From a virus, in IMG/VR virus record IMGVR_UViG_3300030109_003198, positions 1,473 through 29,444 of that record: a stretch of DNA of 27,972 nucleotides; one strand, given 5' to 3'. The notes under the pieces are model-generated. The model was not told the DNA's origin, did not search any database, and worked only from the letters and a program-made list of their open reading frames with translations. Positions 10,639 through 15,930 of this stretch are shown here, piece after piece; the stretch's first letter is position 1; each line of letters opens with the position of its first letter. A program made the position numbers and the translations under genes.

Positions 10639-10679
10639 ATTTTAAATTACACTTTATTACTATATAATATAAAAAAGAA
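10639..10679. promoter_or_regulatory. 41-nt divergent intergenic region with TATAAT box
   Basis: The tail-tip operon (minus) and the lysis-side operon (plus) start back to back here, so both need a promoter in or near this gap. On the plus strand a perfect TATAAT lies at 10663-10668, 11 nt before the GTG at 10680; no good -35 is visible. The box sits in a near-palindromic AT run (TATATAATAT), so it could also serve the minus strand. No Shine-Dalgarno sequence precedes the gpL start. The tail genes could instead be driven by a phage-specific polymerase or an activator. Confidence 0.5.
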
Positions 10680-11390: not shown

Positions 11391-11587
11391 AAAAAAAAGC
11401 TATCCTTTATAGGGTATACACGAAGAAGGGCGAGTATCATCATGGCTATAGTGCAAAGCTAGAAGGGTCTCGCAATTGGGCTATTGATTGTGCTAAAACA
11501 ATCCGTGGCCGCGTCACAGAGGTTTATGATGATGTAGATGGACCTGAAGAGGCTATTTTTGATTATAATAAGAAAGCAAAAAAATAA
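11387..11587 (+). CDS. Small basic protein of unknown function
   Basis: 66 residues, lysine-rich at both ends, with no membrane segment or signal peptide and no motif I recognise. The sequence ILYRVYTKKGEYHHGYSAKLEGS suggests a small beta-strand-rich fold. The start overlaps the previous stop as ATGA and its own stop overlaps the next start as TAATG, so it sits in the middle of a translationally coupled unit leading into the spanin-like pair. Confidence 0.65.
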   Translation: MKKKAILYRVYTKKGEYHHGYSAKLEGSRNWAIDCAKTIRGRVTEVYDDVDGPEEAIFDYNKKAKK

Positions 11588-11856
11588 TGCTTTCAATAAT
11601 TAAATCTGTTTTAAAATCATTAGAATTATTTTTAAATATTAAAAATAACAAGTTCTACTATGATTTACATATAGAACATAACGAAAGAGAGGATAAACTT
11701 ATAGATGAAATTGAAAAACTTAGGCAAACTGGCACTAGTTGGGACGCTGATAGGGCTGACCTCCTGCGCCAGCGACTCGACTCTGAACGTAAACAGTTTA
11801 AACATTTATCAACCTTCTACTCTAAGACTGACGAAGGGGTCTCTAATACAGACTAA
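11587..11856 (+). CDS. Coiled-coil protein paired with spanin lipoprotein (Rz-like?)
   Basis: 89 residues. A hydrophobic or amphipathic N-terminus (LSIIKSVLKSLELFLNI) is followed by a strongly charged helical region with coiled-coil spacing (HNEREDKLIDEIEKLRQ, then DADRADLLRQRLDSERKQ). The gene for an out-of-frame lipoprotein starts inside its 3' half and runs past its end, the arrangement seen for Rz/Rz1 spanins. As an inner-membrane spanin it should have one N-terminal transmembrane helix, but residues 3-17 are short and contain lysine and glutamate, so this may be a divergent or peripheral partner rather than a true Rz. Confidence 0.6.
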   Translation: MLSIIKSVLKSLELFLNIKNNKFYYDLHIEHNEREDKLIDEIEKLRQTGTSWDADRADLLRQRLDSERKQFKHLSTFYSKTDEGVSNTD

Positions 11857-11947
11857 AGATGGTATATATACACCTCAAACCGATGAGGTTTGGCACTCTG
11901 ATGCAAGATATCGTCGCTTAGAGAGAGAAATTTATTCGGGAAAGTAA
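11705..11947 (+). CDS. Small lipoprotein, probable outer-membrane spanin (Rz1-like)
   Basis: 80 residues with a clear lipoprotein signal: charged MKLKNLGK, hydrophobic ALVGTLIGL, then lipobox LTSC with C21 as the lipidated residue. Alanine at +2 predicts sorting to the outer membrane. The mature part (about 60 residues) ends with EVWHSDARYRRLEREI. The gene overlaps the upstream coiled-coil gene by 152 nt in a different frame, as Rz1 does with Rz. In phages of Gram-negative hosts such a pair fuses inner and outer membranes at the last step of lysis. Holin and endolysin genes follow about 0.8-2.4 kb downstream. Confidence 0.75.
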   Translation: MKLKNLGKLALVGTLIGLTSCASDSTLNVNSLNIYQPSTLRLTKGSLIQTKDGIYTPQTDEVWHSDARYRRLEREIYSGK

Positions 11948-12003: not shown

Positions 12004-12687
12004 ATGAAAACACTACTACTTGGTCTTATGACCGTATTGGGCGCTGCTTTTAGCATCGCAGGTTCTGAAGCGACCACTCTTGCCTCTGATATTAAGGGAC
12101 AAGCTGGAGCTTCTATTTCTAATTTCACTACAGATAGAGGTCTTGCTACTAGAGAAGACTCTCTCGGTGCTTCTATTTTGTTGGGCGCTCCTGTTGGTGG
12201 AGGCACTGTAGCTTTTGACTTTGCTCTTAGTGACACCGATAATGGCGGCGAGCTTGACTTCGGAGTTTCTTATGGTAAGGGCGTTACCTTGCTTGGCCAA
12301 GATTTCGATCTTACTGCTGGTATTTCTAGCGTAGAGTCAGTCTTTGGTGACAGAGAAGAAGTTTTTGTGGGCTTGGGTTATACTTGGGTCGCAGATTTAA
12401 CAGCAACTGTGTGGCATGAGGACAATAATGAATGGTATGGAGTTGAGCTTGGAGCTTCTTACGATATTGAGACTCCTGTCGCTGGACTTGTCGCTACTCC
12501 ATTTGCTACAGTAAATATCGCAGATGATTACAGCGCAGTAGAGGTCGGTGTAAAAGCAACTTACAAAGTAAGTGATGACCTTTCTCTAGGCGTTAAAGCT
12601 TCTTATAATAACAATGACTTCGACGGCACTTCTTTCCATGTCGATGATGAATGGATTGTCGGAGCGGGAGCTTCATTTAAGTTTTAA
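12004..12687 (+). CDS. Secreted outer-membrane beta-barrel-like protein (phage cargo gene)
   Basis: 227 residues. The N-terminus is a Sec signal peptide (MKTLLLGLMTVLGAAFSIAG, cleavage predicted near residues 19-24). The mature protein is almost entirely alternating beta sequence (ASILLGAPVGGGTVAFDFAL, TLLGQDFDLTAGISS, EVFVGLGYTWV, YGVELGASYDI, AVEVGVKATYKV, LSLGVKASYNN) and ends in phenylalanine (GAGASFKF), the usual signal for the barrel assembly machine. Its size suits an 8- to 10-strand barrel. The base composition is visibly less AT-rich than the neighbours. Own promoter upstream and own terminator downstream make it an independent transcription unit inserted in the lysis region, like the lom gene of lambda. 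Likely role (inference): altering the host surface, for example blocking superinfection. Confidence 0.8.
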   Translation: MKTLLLGLMTVLGAAFSIAGSEATTLASDIKGQAGASISNFTTDRGLATREDSLGASILLGAPVGGGTVAFDFALSDTDNGGELDFGVSYGKGVTLLGQDFDLTAGISSVESVFGDREEVFVGLGYTWVADLTATVWHEDNNEWYGVELGASYDIETPVAGLVATPFATVNIADDYSAVEVGVKATYKVSDDLSLGVKASYNNNDFDGTSFHVDDEWIVGAGASFKF

Positions 12688-12716: not shown

Positions 12717-12744
12717 AAAAGCCTCCCGCAAGGGGGGCTTTTTT
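12717..12744 (+). terminator. Rho-independent terminator after the outer-membrane protein gene
   Basis: Stem GCCTCCC (12721-12727) pairs with GGGGGGC (12732-12738) with one G-T pair, closed by a GCAA tetraloop, and is followed by a run of six T. Four upstream A residues can extend the stem into the T run, so it may also work on the opposite strand. Confidence 0.92.
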
Positions 12745-12768
12745 CGTATCCCGTGTAAATAGTTAAAC

Positions 12769-13086
12769 ATGGAACCTGAAAAGTCTATTTTAAAAGAGTT
12801 TTTAAACGGAGGATGGTTAGTGCCGCTTGTTGGTGCTGCTGCTATGTTTGCTAGGTTATTGTCTGGGAACAGTGGTTTGTCTTTAAAACAACAATTTAAG
12901 AGAGTGGCTACAGCAGCTATTGCTGCTGGCATAGCTTGGTTTGTGTTGGAACAGACAGATGTCTCTTCTCTTACCAAAGCCATCACTTACGGTATTATAG
13001 GTGTAATTAGTCCAGAAGTAATTAGCGGAATTGTGAGACTAGCAGAAAAATTCGCTAAGAACCCAGAGAAATTTTTAAAGAAATGA
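12769..13086 (+). CDS. Holin
   Basis: 105 residues. Two hydrophobic segments are visible, about residues 14-31 (GGWLVPLVGAAAMFARLL) and 46-62 (VATAAIAAGIAWFVLE), with a weaker third around 71-90 (AITYGIIGVISPEVISGIV), and the C-terminus is lysine-rich (EKFAKNPEKFLKK), the usual holin layout. The pattern fits the LydA/superfamily III type of phage holins. It is followed directly (ATGA overlap) by a membrane protein and then the endolysin. It should form the inner-membrane lesion that times lysis. A possible weak -10 (TGTAAAT) lies in the short leader after the terminator. Confidence 0.8.
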   Translation: MEPEKSILKEFLNGGWLVPLVGAAAMFARLLSGNSGLSLKQQFKRVATAAIAAGIAWFVLEQTDVSSLTKAITYGIIGVISPEVISGIVRLAEKFAKNPEKFLKK

Positions 13087-13688
13087 GACCTAAGTTTATT
13101 GTTTATTGTTTAGCAGCTATTTGTTTGGCTTTTGCGTGGAAAGGATTGATTCTTACAGAAGACATTGAATCTACTTTAGAGGAAAATGCTAGGCAATCAG
13201 AGTCATCTATTATGGAAATAGGCATGTGCTTTGATTGGTATGGAGTTATTATAGTTAACTCTGTTGTCAAAACTTCTCACGGCTCTATAACTCCTGCGGA
13301 AATGGTTGATATTTTAGAAGAAGAGCGCGGGTATAAAGACGAATATTTAGAGGGCTATAAGAAAGATATTACCCCTGATGAGGTAGAATACGCAGATTTT
13401 GTGTTTAAACAAGAAGTTATTATAAATGCTTATGTTGATGAGTTGATTGCTTGGGCTAACAAAGGAGATGTAGAAATGATAAAAGCTTCAATACCTAGAA
13501 TGTATGATATGACTGATCCTACAATTGATGCGATCAATACCATAATGGATACAAAAATGTATTACAATGAAGCTCAAGCAGGAATTTTAAACGAAAAAAT
13601 ATGTAATTATAGAGACTTCATGATCTTAACTATCGTTTTATGTGTTGTGATGTCTATCTGCGCTGGTTTTAGTAGAAAGTGTGCATAA
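13083..13688 (+). CDS. Two-helix membrane protein with four-helix-bundle sensor-like periplasmic domain
   Basis: 201 residues. Hydrophobic helices at about residues 5-22 and 179-195 flank about 155 residues that would face the periplasm. That region is all helix, and its spacing (YVDELIAWANKGDVEMIKASIPRMYDMTDPTIDAI...YYNEAQ, shown in part) follows the ligand-binding four-helix bundle of methyl-accepting chemotaxis proteins. The C-terminus stops about six residues after the second helix, so there is no HAMP or signalling domain. It is coupled to both the holin (4-nt overlap) and the endolysin (TAATG), which suggests a job in lysis timing such as an antiholin that senses a periplasmic signal. 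That role is inference. Confidence 0.65.
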   Translation: MRPKFIVYCLAAICLAFAWKGLILTEDIESTLEENARQSESSIMEIGMCFDWYGVIIVNSVVKTSHGSITPAEMVDILEEERGYKDEYLEGYKKDITPDEVEYADFVFKQEVIINAYVDELIAWANKGDVEMIKASIPRMYDMTDPTIDAINTIMDTKMYYNEAQAGILNEKICNYRDFMILTIVLCVVMSICAGFSRKCA

Positions 13689-14308
13689 TGAATTTTAAAG
13701 GTAAAAAAGAAGTAGTAAGAGCGGTGCAGAAACTCCTTGGGGTATCTGCTGACGGCGCTGATGGGCCTGTCACTTGGAACGCTATCTTAGCTCAACTCTC
13801 AACGAAGGACGCTCCAGCCATCAATGGGAGTATAGCGCAGAAAATGGTTTCATTAGCTAGAGAGGAAATAGGGGTATCTGAAGTGGATGGTAGTAATTGT
13901 GGTCCTAGAGTAGATGAGTATAAAGCAGCAACATGGTTAGATCCTGAAAAGGGGTGGCCTTGGTGTGCAGCTTTTATTTGCTGGTTAGTAAGAGAAGCTA
14001 TAGATGGAGAAGACATCTCTTTCAAAAGACCTCGCACTGCTGGAGCTTGGGATTTTGAGAATTGGGCCAAACAACAATCTGGTAGAGGTGTAGATCTTCG
14101 TAAGCCCACCAATGAAGATATCAAAGCTGGAGATATTATTATTTTTTCATTTTCACATATAGGTTTAGCTATAAAAGATATTGACTCCAGTGGCTATGTT
14201 GTTGCTATAGAAGGTAATACAAATGGAGCGGGGAGCAGAGAGGGCGGCTCCGTCTTAGAAAAGAAACGTCATGTTTCTAAGATAAGAAGCAGAATAAGAA
14301 TAGTTTAG
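13688..14308 (+). CDS. Endolysin: peptidoglycan-binding domain plus CHAP amidase/peptidase
   Basis: 206 residues from the ATG at 13688, which overlaps the previous stop as TAATG; an in-frame GTG at 13679 is less likely. Residues 7-36 (VVRAVQKLLGVSADGADGPV) are a short peptidoglycan-binding type 1 repeat. The CHAP catalytic domain follows: C93 in WPWCAAFICW, H157 in SFSHIGLAI and N177 in IEGNTN form the expected triad. No signal peptide is present, so release depends on the holin. The PG-binding domain at the N-terminus is typical of endolysins against Gram-negative walls. Confidence 0.9.
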   Translation: MNFKGKKEVVRAVQKLLGVSADGADGPVTWNAILAQLSTKDAPAINGSIAQKMVSLAREEIGVSEVDGSNCGPRVDEYKAATWLDPEKGWPWCAAFICWLVREAIDGEDISFKRPRTAGAWDFENWAKQQSGRGVDLRKPTNEDIKAGDIIIFSFSHIGLAIKDIDSSGYVVAIEGNTNGAGSREGGSVLEKKRHVSKIRSRIRIV

Positions 14309-14646: not shown

Positions 14647-15147
14647 ATGACTACATTACCCATCAGAAAAGAAATATATAATTACAGTAAAGACTTAGTA
14701 GACCAAAACAACTTCGGGCAAAGAGGTAAAGATGACGGTAGCCCTAAAGAACAATTTATAGGTATTCTTTCTGAAAATATGGTCAGGCAATATTTAGGTC
14801 ATAAATTAATTGAGCCTAAAGGTTTTGATGGAGGTTACGATATAATATATAAAGATCTACGCACTGATATAAAATCAATGAATAGAACTGTAGACCCTAA
14901 ACCTTTCTATATAAATAATGTTTTTGATGTGCAGTTAAAACATGAGTCAGAAGCTTACATTTTTACTTCTCTAAATACTCAAAAGAAAAACTTGTCTATT
15001 TGTGGGTGGGTTACTAAAGAGCAATTTAAAAAGAGAGCATCTTTTTATCCTAAAGGAACTGTTAGGATGAGGGGAAGGGAACCTTTCCCACTAAGAGCAG
15101 ATAACTGGGAAATAGAAAATAAACATTTAAATGAATTTAGTAAATGA
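14647..15147 (+). CDS. PD-(D/E)XK nuclease-like protein
   Basis: 166 residues. The restriction-endonuclease-like core is visible: a helix with a glutamate (ILSENMVRQYL, E43 region), then FDGGYDIIYKDLRTDIKS, in which the D of GYD and the DIK form the PD-(D/E)XK pattern. A conserved follow-up strand and GWVTKEQFKKRASF helix occur in a family of small phage and restriction-associated nucleases. Substrate is unknown; roles in host DNA degradation, recombination or competition with other phages are possible. Its last 17 nt overlap the pyrophosphatase gene. Confidence 0.65.
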   Translation: MTTLPIRKEIYNYSKDLVDQNNFGQRGKDDGSPKEQFIGILSENMVRQYLGHKLIEPKGFDGGYDIIYKDLRTDIKSMNRTVDPKPFYINNVFDVQLKHESEAYIFTSLNTQKKNLSICGWVTKEQFKKRASFYPKGTVRMRGREPFPLRADNWEIENKHLNEFSK

Positions 15148-15733
15148 TATCCCGATTACTTCGGACGATTATGAGCATGTAAATTGCATAGTGGAGATTC
15201 CCAAAGGAACCAACACTAAATACGAATACGATGAGAATTTAAATATATTTAAATTAGATAGATGTTTGGTTTCTTCTTTGCAGTACCCAATTAATTATGG
15301 TTTCATCCCTCAAACCATCGCCCTAGACAACGATCCTTTAGATGTCTTGATATTTAATCACGACCCAATTGACAGAGCGAGTTTAGTTTCTTGTCGTATA
15401 CTTGGAGTCTTAGGGTTTGTAGATAGTGGGGAAGTAGATAATAAAATCATTGCTGTTCCTAACTGGTCTCCTGTAGAAAAATATAAAACAGTTCATGATA
15501 TTGAATCTTGTCATTTAAAAATTTACAGACAATTTTTTAAAATATATAAAATTGATAGAGACTCTAGCACCCAAGTAGGAGACTGGAAGTCTAAAGGGGT
15601 CGCCACAAAAATAACTAAAGATTCTCATAAAAGGTGGGAAAAAGCTAACGCTGAAAGGTTTCACCAAGAATGGTCTGATAGAAATTTTTGGAAAACAATT
15701 AGAGATAAGCGTTACATAGTTCAACCTGATTAG
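15131..15733 (+). CDS. ppa: Inorganic pyrophosphatase, family I
   Basis: 200 residues, slightly longer than E. coli PPase (about 175). The signature DNDPLD (66-71) and the other active-site residues are intact with near-constant offset to the E. coli enzyme: E22, K30, E32, R44, Y56, D66, D68, D71, D98, D103, K105, Y139 and K140. It hydrolyses pyrophosphate to phosphate in the cytoplasm, pulling nucleotide polymerisation forward. The C-terminal 45 residues after the catalytic core (KRWEKANAERFHQEWSDRNF) are an extra helical tail. It sits between a nuclease-like gene and a small membrane protein gene in a promoter-led unit, and is unusual cargo for a phage. Confidence 0.95.
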   Translation: MNLVNDIPITSDDYEHVNCIVEIPKGTNTKYEYDENLNIFKLDRCLVSSLQYPINYGFIPQTIALDNDPLDVLIFNHDPIDRASLVSCRILGVLGFVDSGEVDNKIIAVPNWSPVEKYKTVHDIESCHLKIYRQFFKIYKIDRDSSTQVGDWKSKGVATKITKDSHKRWEKANAERFHQEWSDRNFWKTIRDKRYIVQPD

Positions 15734-15747
15734 GTGTAAAAAGGAGT

Positions 15748-15930
15748 ATGGATACTATTCTTCAACTAGTTCAAGATAACCCTTGGTTCGGTGTAGTGAC
15801 TGCTGCAATTGCTTTAGCATCTGCTGTCGCTGCCGCCACCCCAACTCCAGAAGAGGGGTCTTTGTGGTCCAAAATCTATAAAATTATTGATTGGGCTGCG
15901 TTAAACATCGGGAAAGCCAAGCAGAAATAG
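15748..15930 (+). CDS. Small single-span membrane protein (holin-like)
   Basis: 60 residues. AAGGAG lies just 1 nt before the ATG, one of the few good Shine-Dalgarno sequences here. Residues 12-32 (PWFGVVTAAIALASAVAAAT) are one hydrophobic helix, followed by PTPEEGS and an amphipathic, lysine-ended tail (KIIDWAALNIGKAKQK). Size and layout fit a class III holin or another lysis accessory protein, but a two-/three-helix holin is already present upstream, so this could be a second holin, an antiholin or an unrelated membrane peptide. A terminator follows. Confidence 0.6.
   Translation: MDTILQLVQDNPWFGVVTAAIALASAVAAATPTPEEGSLWSKIYKIIDWAALNIGKAKQK

Follow-up and report, generated by a model that had tools for sequence, protein, structure and literature searches.

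What does a membrane protein with a predicted receptor-like outer domain do between a holin and an endolysin? This question is raised by a gene, here called X. It lies in a stretch of 27,972 nt (hereafter the window) that belongs to an IMG/VR virus record of 29.4 kb.

Lysis unit and neighbouring genes

In the window, lambda-like tail genes (L, K, I and J) lie on the minus strand and the lysis unit on the plus strand. The open reading frame of X proved to be real and is placed between holin and endolysin, as an earlier note made from the letters alone had claimed. It joins the holin gene in an ATGA overlap (13083-13086), and its stop codon and the start of the endolysin form TAATG. The lysis unit comprises the following features:

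12722..12743, plus strand: intrinsic-terminator-like hairpin just 5' of the holin gene
12753..12758, plus strand: GTGTAA motif
12769..13086, plus strand: holin, 105 aa, three TM helices, predicted N-out/C-in; proposed partner of X
13083..13688, plus strand: gene X, 201 aa; membrane protein in which two TM helices flank a predicted periplasmic four-helix bundle, proposed to regulate lysis as a partner of the holin
13688..14308, plus strand: CHAP endolysin, 206 aa from the ATG at 13688

The holin was assigned on the basis of its gene position and of phrog_6384 'holin', matched by 17/17 homologues (best E 1e-5), and the endolysin by CHAP (E 3.4e-6) and PHROG endolysins (E down to 1.3e-13). Searches with the endolysin returned CHAP lysins only, all below 60% identity, and those with tail protein L only distant lambda-like tails. 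PADLOC reported nothing, and no packaging ATPase of PF05876 was present in the larger contigs. For X itself, a single-sequence search among cultured phages and plasmids gave no match, and the X and holin profiles found no relative in GTDB genomes; in IMG/VR, 125 relatives of X were identified.

The ATGA overlap (-4) recurs at the holin/X junction of all 89 non-redundant loci with full-length X (89/89). In 79/83 loci, the next open reading frame with a length of 150 aa or more begins with an ATG at an offset of -4 to +3 relative to the X stop. Such junctions may give translational coupling of holin, X and endolysin. A hairpin is found just 5' of the holin in 85/89 full-X loci, and GTGTAA, a candidate phage promoter element for the three genes, stands 14–19 nt 5' of the holin ATG in 95/113 loci. 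As both elements stand just ahead of the holin ATG and recur commonly among relatives, holin, X and endolysin probably form a single transcription unit. Further GTGTAA sites lie near 10652 (-), 15734 (+) and 24164 (-), about 14–19 nt 5' of ATGs; among the genes preceded by the motif are the leading gene of the tail operon and one of 60 aa. GTGTAANTA occurs five times in the 27,972-nt window against 1.1 expected copies. The motif is a candidate for a phage-specific promoter with very short leaders.

Several neighbouring genes were noted as well. An overlapping pair in different frames (11587-11856 and 11705-11947, both +) is found in most relatives. The product of 11705-11947 is lipoprotein-like, with an LTSC lipobox as in Rz1-type o-spanins; in that of 11587-11856 the N-terminus is amphipathic and no TM helix is clear, so that it is not a usual i-spanin. 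Before the lysis unit, 12004-12687 (+) encodes an outer-membrane beta-barrel-like protein with weak Pfam porin matches, whose homologues occur in most X-bearing loci and are absent from most X-less ones, a linkage that is not strict. An inorganic pyrophosphatase gene (15131-15733, +; Pfam PF00719, E 3.9e-46) adjoins the lysis genes and is shared by many relatives and missing in others. Conserved 3' of the lysis genes in most relatives is a small hydrophobic protein of 60 aa (15748-15930, +; phrog_9685), a possible further membrane lysis factor, which is also encoded near the holin in locus L090. Directly 5' of a lone holin, two loci carry a gene for a secreted protein of 145–150 aa (phrog_6631/22529; L152 4313-4762 and L126 2932-3366, both -), which may be an alternative cell-wall enzyme; its assignment as a 3D/RlpA-type cell-wall protein was rejected, as no Pfam match supports it.

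Predicted topology, fold and constraint of X

Within X, the following parts were distinguished:

13095..13154, plus strand: TM1, residues 5-24, preceded by the basic N-terminus MRPK; kept in the shortened variants described below
13155..13610, plus strand: predicted periplasmic antiparallel four-helix bundle, residues 25-176 (AlphaFold2, Foldseek, hydropathy)
13212..13256, plus strand: near-invariant block of helix 1, residues 44-58, MEIGMCFDWYGVIIV, conserved on all helix faces
13512..13571, plus strand: second conserved block, in helix 4, residues 144-163, TDPTIxAINxxxDxKMYYNE
13611..13673, plus strand: TM2, residues 177-197, followed by a basic C-terminus

Since the hydropathy of X peaks at residues 6-24 and 179-197 and both termini are basic (MRPK at the start, SRKCA at the end), it is predicted to be N-in/C-in with a periplasmic part of about 150 aa. 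A third conserved hydrophobic stretch (residues 43-61) scores lower (1.34) and holds E45 and D51. AlphaFold2 predicts helices at residues 3-65, 71-93, 98-127 and 137-199, of which the first and the last run into the membrane anchors. The pLDDT was 79.3 in a first run and 89.5 (pTM 0.74) in a second one based on 27 homologues with more divergent ones added. Two TM helices around a four-helix bundle, as described earlier from the sequence, are thus predicted in both runs, so that the refuting outcome named at that time, a predicted structure lacking such a bundle, did not occur. The structure comparison proposed at that time places 4HB sensors nearest to X in predicted fold. HAMP, kinase and MCP signalling domains are absent, as the C-terminus follows 4–5 residues after TM2; here, too, the earlier description of a protein with no signalling domain was accurate. 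Two other identities were ruled out: a full chemoreceptor or sensor kinase by the lack of a HAMP or output domain, and an i-spanin, with a single N-terminal TM helix and a free periplasmic C-terminus, by the second TM helix at the C-terminal end.

In the Foldseek comparison of the second model with the PDB, bacterial 4HB sensors (NarQ, Adeh_2942, MCP2201, Tar) fill ranks 1–9, and the best TM-scores are 0.76 on the target for Adeh_2942 (4k0d, rmsd 2.9 Å) and 0.70 for 6its, with every E-value above 0.06 and other four-helix proteins matching too. The best BFVD match of the first model is annotated as 4HB MCP (TM 0.70/0.59, E 1.2e-3). This viral structure, A0A8S5L4P1, is assigned to the ssRNA phage SRR5466725_21 and could be either a bacterial transcript that was assigned wrongly or a further viral protein that uses the 4HB fold. 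Matches to Smoothened, A2A and Ctr1 structures were set aside as evidence against a sensor fold, since several of these entries carry a fused four-helix BRIL and therefore represent a four-helix match and not a receptor match. The fusion is stated for 8pwn and 7c6a, and others among these entries are BRIL fusions as well.

The proposed membership of X in 4HB_MCP did not hold at the level of sequence profiles, as no 4HB family was found in Pfam up to E 1 for 27 X homologues (set A1) or in NCBIfam for homologue set A2. More generally, Pfam, NCBIfam, PADLOC and annotated PHROGs gave no convincing family match for X, and a PDB sequence search gave chance matches alone. Given the weak Foldseek E-values and the silent Pfam search, the likeness in fold does not show homology to 4HB_MCP; structure prediction supports a four-helix, 4HB-like fold class. 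With the 4HB sensors NarQ, Adeh_2942, MCP2201 and Tar, X shares the antiparallel bundle whose end helices continue into TM1 and TM2 and the N-in/C-in topology, both as predicted for X, and its conservation peaks in helices 1 and 4. In contrast to them, X has neither a HAMP, kinase or MCP output nor a 4HB sequence match, and it is phage-encoded in a lysis operon.

X is under strong purifying selection. Its length is 201 aa in 80/80 homologues, across which pN is 0.135, pS 0.70 and dN/dS about 0.07 (pS being near saturation); pN is 0.065 for the neighbouring holin and 0.073 for the endolysin. Within the soluble part, pN is lowest at residues 41-60 and 151-160, that is, in helices 1 and 4. Residues 44-58 stay almost invariant even where the overall identity is 55%, which suggests a candidate ligand, dimer or partner surface. 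In the C-terminus, Cys200 is invariant among the X proteins and present in every variant.

Association of X with the holin across related loci

A DNA pattern of the holin, blind to X, matched at least 119 stretches. The pooled set of 114 non-redundant holin junctions includes loci found by an X query, so that its counts are not frequencies: 92 junctions carry X (two of them cut at the contig end), 13 lead from the holin directly to the endolysin, three carry an 81-aa and three a 93-aa protein, and three are others. Other arrangements of the holin without X were seen in L152, L194 and L090. X follows the holin in every locus whose contig reaches far enough and was never seen without it. Even for the divergent X proteins of L200, L201 and L202 (54–56% identity), the overlap with the holin gene is again 4 nt. 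L200 and L201 (54–55% identity) have unrelated neighbourhoods without an endolysin homologue within about 5 kb, the latter being a small lipoprotein-holin-X island; the endolysin is present in L202. As X and holin are paired in L200 and L201 even without an endolysin, the holin is the constant partner of X; as the holin leads directly to the endolysin in 13 loci, these two genes suffice and X is accessory. X is a holin-specific accessory: it depends on the holin, whereas the holin does not depend on X.

The 81- and 93-aa proteins, which occupy the site of X in other phages, differ from it in one segment:

13182..13571, plus strand: segment missing or replaced in the 81- and 93-aa variants, X residues 34-163

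A profile HMM built from 83 full-length X proteins matches the 93-aa proteins through the two ends of the profile only (positions 1-33 and 164-201; E 1.2e-14) and the 81-aa proteins with E 4–7e-6, against a best E of 0.048 among about 4,630 decoys and shuffled sequences. In addition, tblastn with the 81-aa query recovers the 93-aa form (E 4e-7). Based on these matches, both are X proteins without the bundle, here called mini-X; by this comparison, the two membrane segments are what stays constant and the bundle is what can be removed. In the 93-aa form (L195 2001-2279, L112 3257-3535), the periplasmic loop is short and contains CDFC (CxxC); it may be a substitute for the bundle that senses metal or redox state.

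In a holin tree, the holins of mini-X loci are nested inside the X-bearing clade (support 96/94), which argues for at least one replacement of the bundle, and the X-less phages form one clade (100/100). Independent events are few, because the X-less holins are one clade and mini-X is found in only three plus three non-redundant loci. Since the X-less holins form one clade, the holin differences P19S, S32H, G33A and G54T between X-bearing and X-less loci were dropped as contact sites.

Proposed role of X and known lysis regulators

We consider it rather probable that X is a holin-partner lysis regulator, probably antiholin-like, with a removable periplasmic sensor. In the full model, X would be anchored in the inner membrane by its two helices (N-in, C-in), next to the three-helix holin, and would most likely delay or set holin triggering. 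The periplasmic bundle of about 150 aa would act as an input domain, as in a chemoreceptor or a NarQ-type kinase. A periplasmic event (a small ligand, envelope damage or superinfection) would shift helix 1 against helix 4, moving TM1 against TM2 and thereby tightening or loosening the hold on the holin. Contact between X and the holin, an inhibitory sign and the signal-driven shift are elements that we infer. Two features count for the model: a bundle whose end helices are continuous with TM1 and TM2 has the geometry used for transmembrane signalling, and the most constrained stretches of X lie in helices 1 and 4. The lysis role suggested earlier from gene position now also has the dependence of X on the holin and the exchange of the bundle between conserved anchors behind it, so that the reading in that note is supported in part. 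As the two-TM partners N4 gp62 and LysF1a can promote lysis, the inhibitory sign is a guess. Tentatively, and at somewhat less than even confidence, we also suggest chemoreceptor-style control, in which X would grip the holin and an exchangeable periplasmic domain (bundle, CxxC loop or almost nothing) would pick the signal, extracellular or periplasmic, that loosens or tightens this grip. If this is true, phages tune the moment of lysis by exchanging the sensor while retaining the anchors.

Other explanations were weighed against this model. It is doubtful, although compatible with a regulator role of X, that the bundle serves as an inert spacer or as a rigid scaffold, for example one that dimerises X, so that X would regulate the holin without ligand or signal. 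Four-helix bundles are common as scaffolds and no ligand site can be named in that of X. A mere scaffold fits less well with the long invariant runs that cover every face of helix 1 and recur in helix 4, next to a variable membrane-proximal part of helix 4 and a variable TM2, and mini-X phages manage without any bundle. X might also be a lysis helper or second holin, whose two-TM hairpin joins or speeds the lesion while the bundle limits or orders assembly. We regard this as unlikely, since holin and endolysin occur without X in 13 non-redundant loci, which makes a second holin unnecessary, and since an ordered periplasmic bundle of 150 aa is unusual for a pore former. Class II holins share the N-in/C-in topology with two TM helices, and mini-X is little beyond a hairpin. 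Mixed holin/antiholin behaviour, as shown by N4 gp62 and mycobacteriophage LysF1a, would likewise suit it (PMC12642591, PMC13056207).

An inner-membrane location and a periplasmic domain, both predicted, together with a place in a late operon would also suit a protein of superinfection exclusion or envelope protection that is co-expressed with lysis genes by chance. Such membrane proteins block incoming DNA in T4-like phages. For X this is very improbable, as the strict linkage to the holin with a constant 4-nt overlap, even away from the endolysin, is unexpected for an immunity gene, and mini-X has lost the whole periplasmic domain and with it the expected blocking part. The predicted likeness to host-type 4HB sensors would allow X to be a decoy that disturbs signalling by pairing its domain with a chemoreceptor or a sensor kinase of the host. 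We give this the least credence: X has no sequence similarity to any 4HB family, and the domain is dispensable in variants that retain the membrane ends and the site beside the holin.

Returning to X as a holin-partner regulator, signal-dependent lysis timing is known from few phages in the literature covered (T4, N4, ICP1, BSPM4). If the model is true, a holin partner whose periplasmic domain is of the receptor type offers a tool to ask whether, and what, phages sense before bursting the cell, and the natural versions of X with the domain missing or replaced are a ready-made construct set. The family spans more than 120 IMG/VR contigs of a large group of uncultured phages and is no one-phage curiosity. 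That related phages lost or replaced the outer domain only, with the anchors kept, suggests a modular sensor of lysis timing. X would then belong to the phage lysis regulators, a known class, with the predicted chemoreceptor-like periplasmic domain as the new part. In the literature within our coverage, outside which most subscription journals lie, neither a 4HB_MCP domain next to a holin nor a holin partner with a chemoreceptor-type domain is described.

Among the known regulators, the T4 antiholin RI carries a single, cleavable anchor at its N-terminus and binds a periplasmic domain of the holin T (PMC11413866, PMC8385771). Its likeness to X lies in the proposed role alone, a membrane-anchored periplasmic domain that sets holin timing, whereas X is anchored by two helices and the holin encoded beside it is almost without a periplasmic domain. 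The earlier statement that T4 RI is unrelated in sequence agrees with our searches, in which X matched no annotated antiholin family (Pfam, PHROGs, NCBIfam). In ICP1, deletion of the antiholin ArrA, which acts with the holin TeaA, abolishes lysis inhibition, and ArrA homologues are reported from vibriophages only (PMC7182436); likened by description, ArrA and X are both accessory TM proteins encoded near the holin. Mycobacteriophage LysF1a, an 88-aa N-in/C-in protein with two TM helices in the lysis cassette, is not a pure antiholin and can promote lysis (PMC13056207). Its size and topology are close to those of mini-X, but in contrast to X it comes from a mycobacterial host and has no periplasmic sensor domain. 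The nearest functional parallel is N4 gp62, which has two TM helices, N-in/C-in, is encoded beside the pinholin, leads to earlier lysis when deleted and also shows lysis-promoting behaviour (PMC12642591). Likened by description and not by sequence alignment (X has no annotated PHROG match), both are accessory two-TM proteins whose genes adjoin that of the holin, and with 109 aa gp62 is near the mini-X sizes of 81 and 93 aa. Compared with gp62, which is paired with a one-TM pinholin, X has a three-TM holin as its partner and adds a periplasmic domain of 150 aa.
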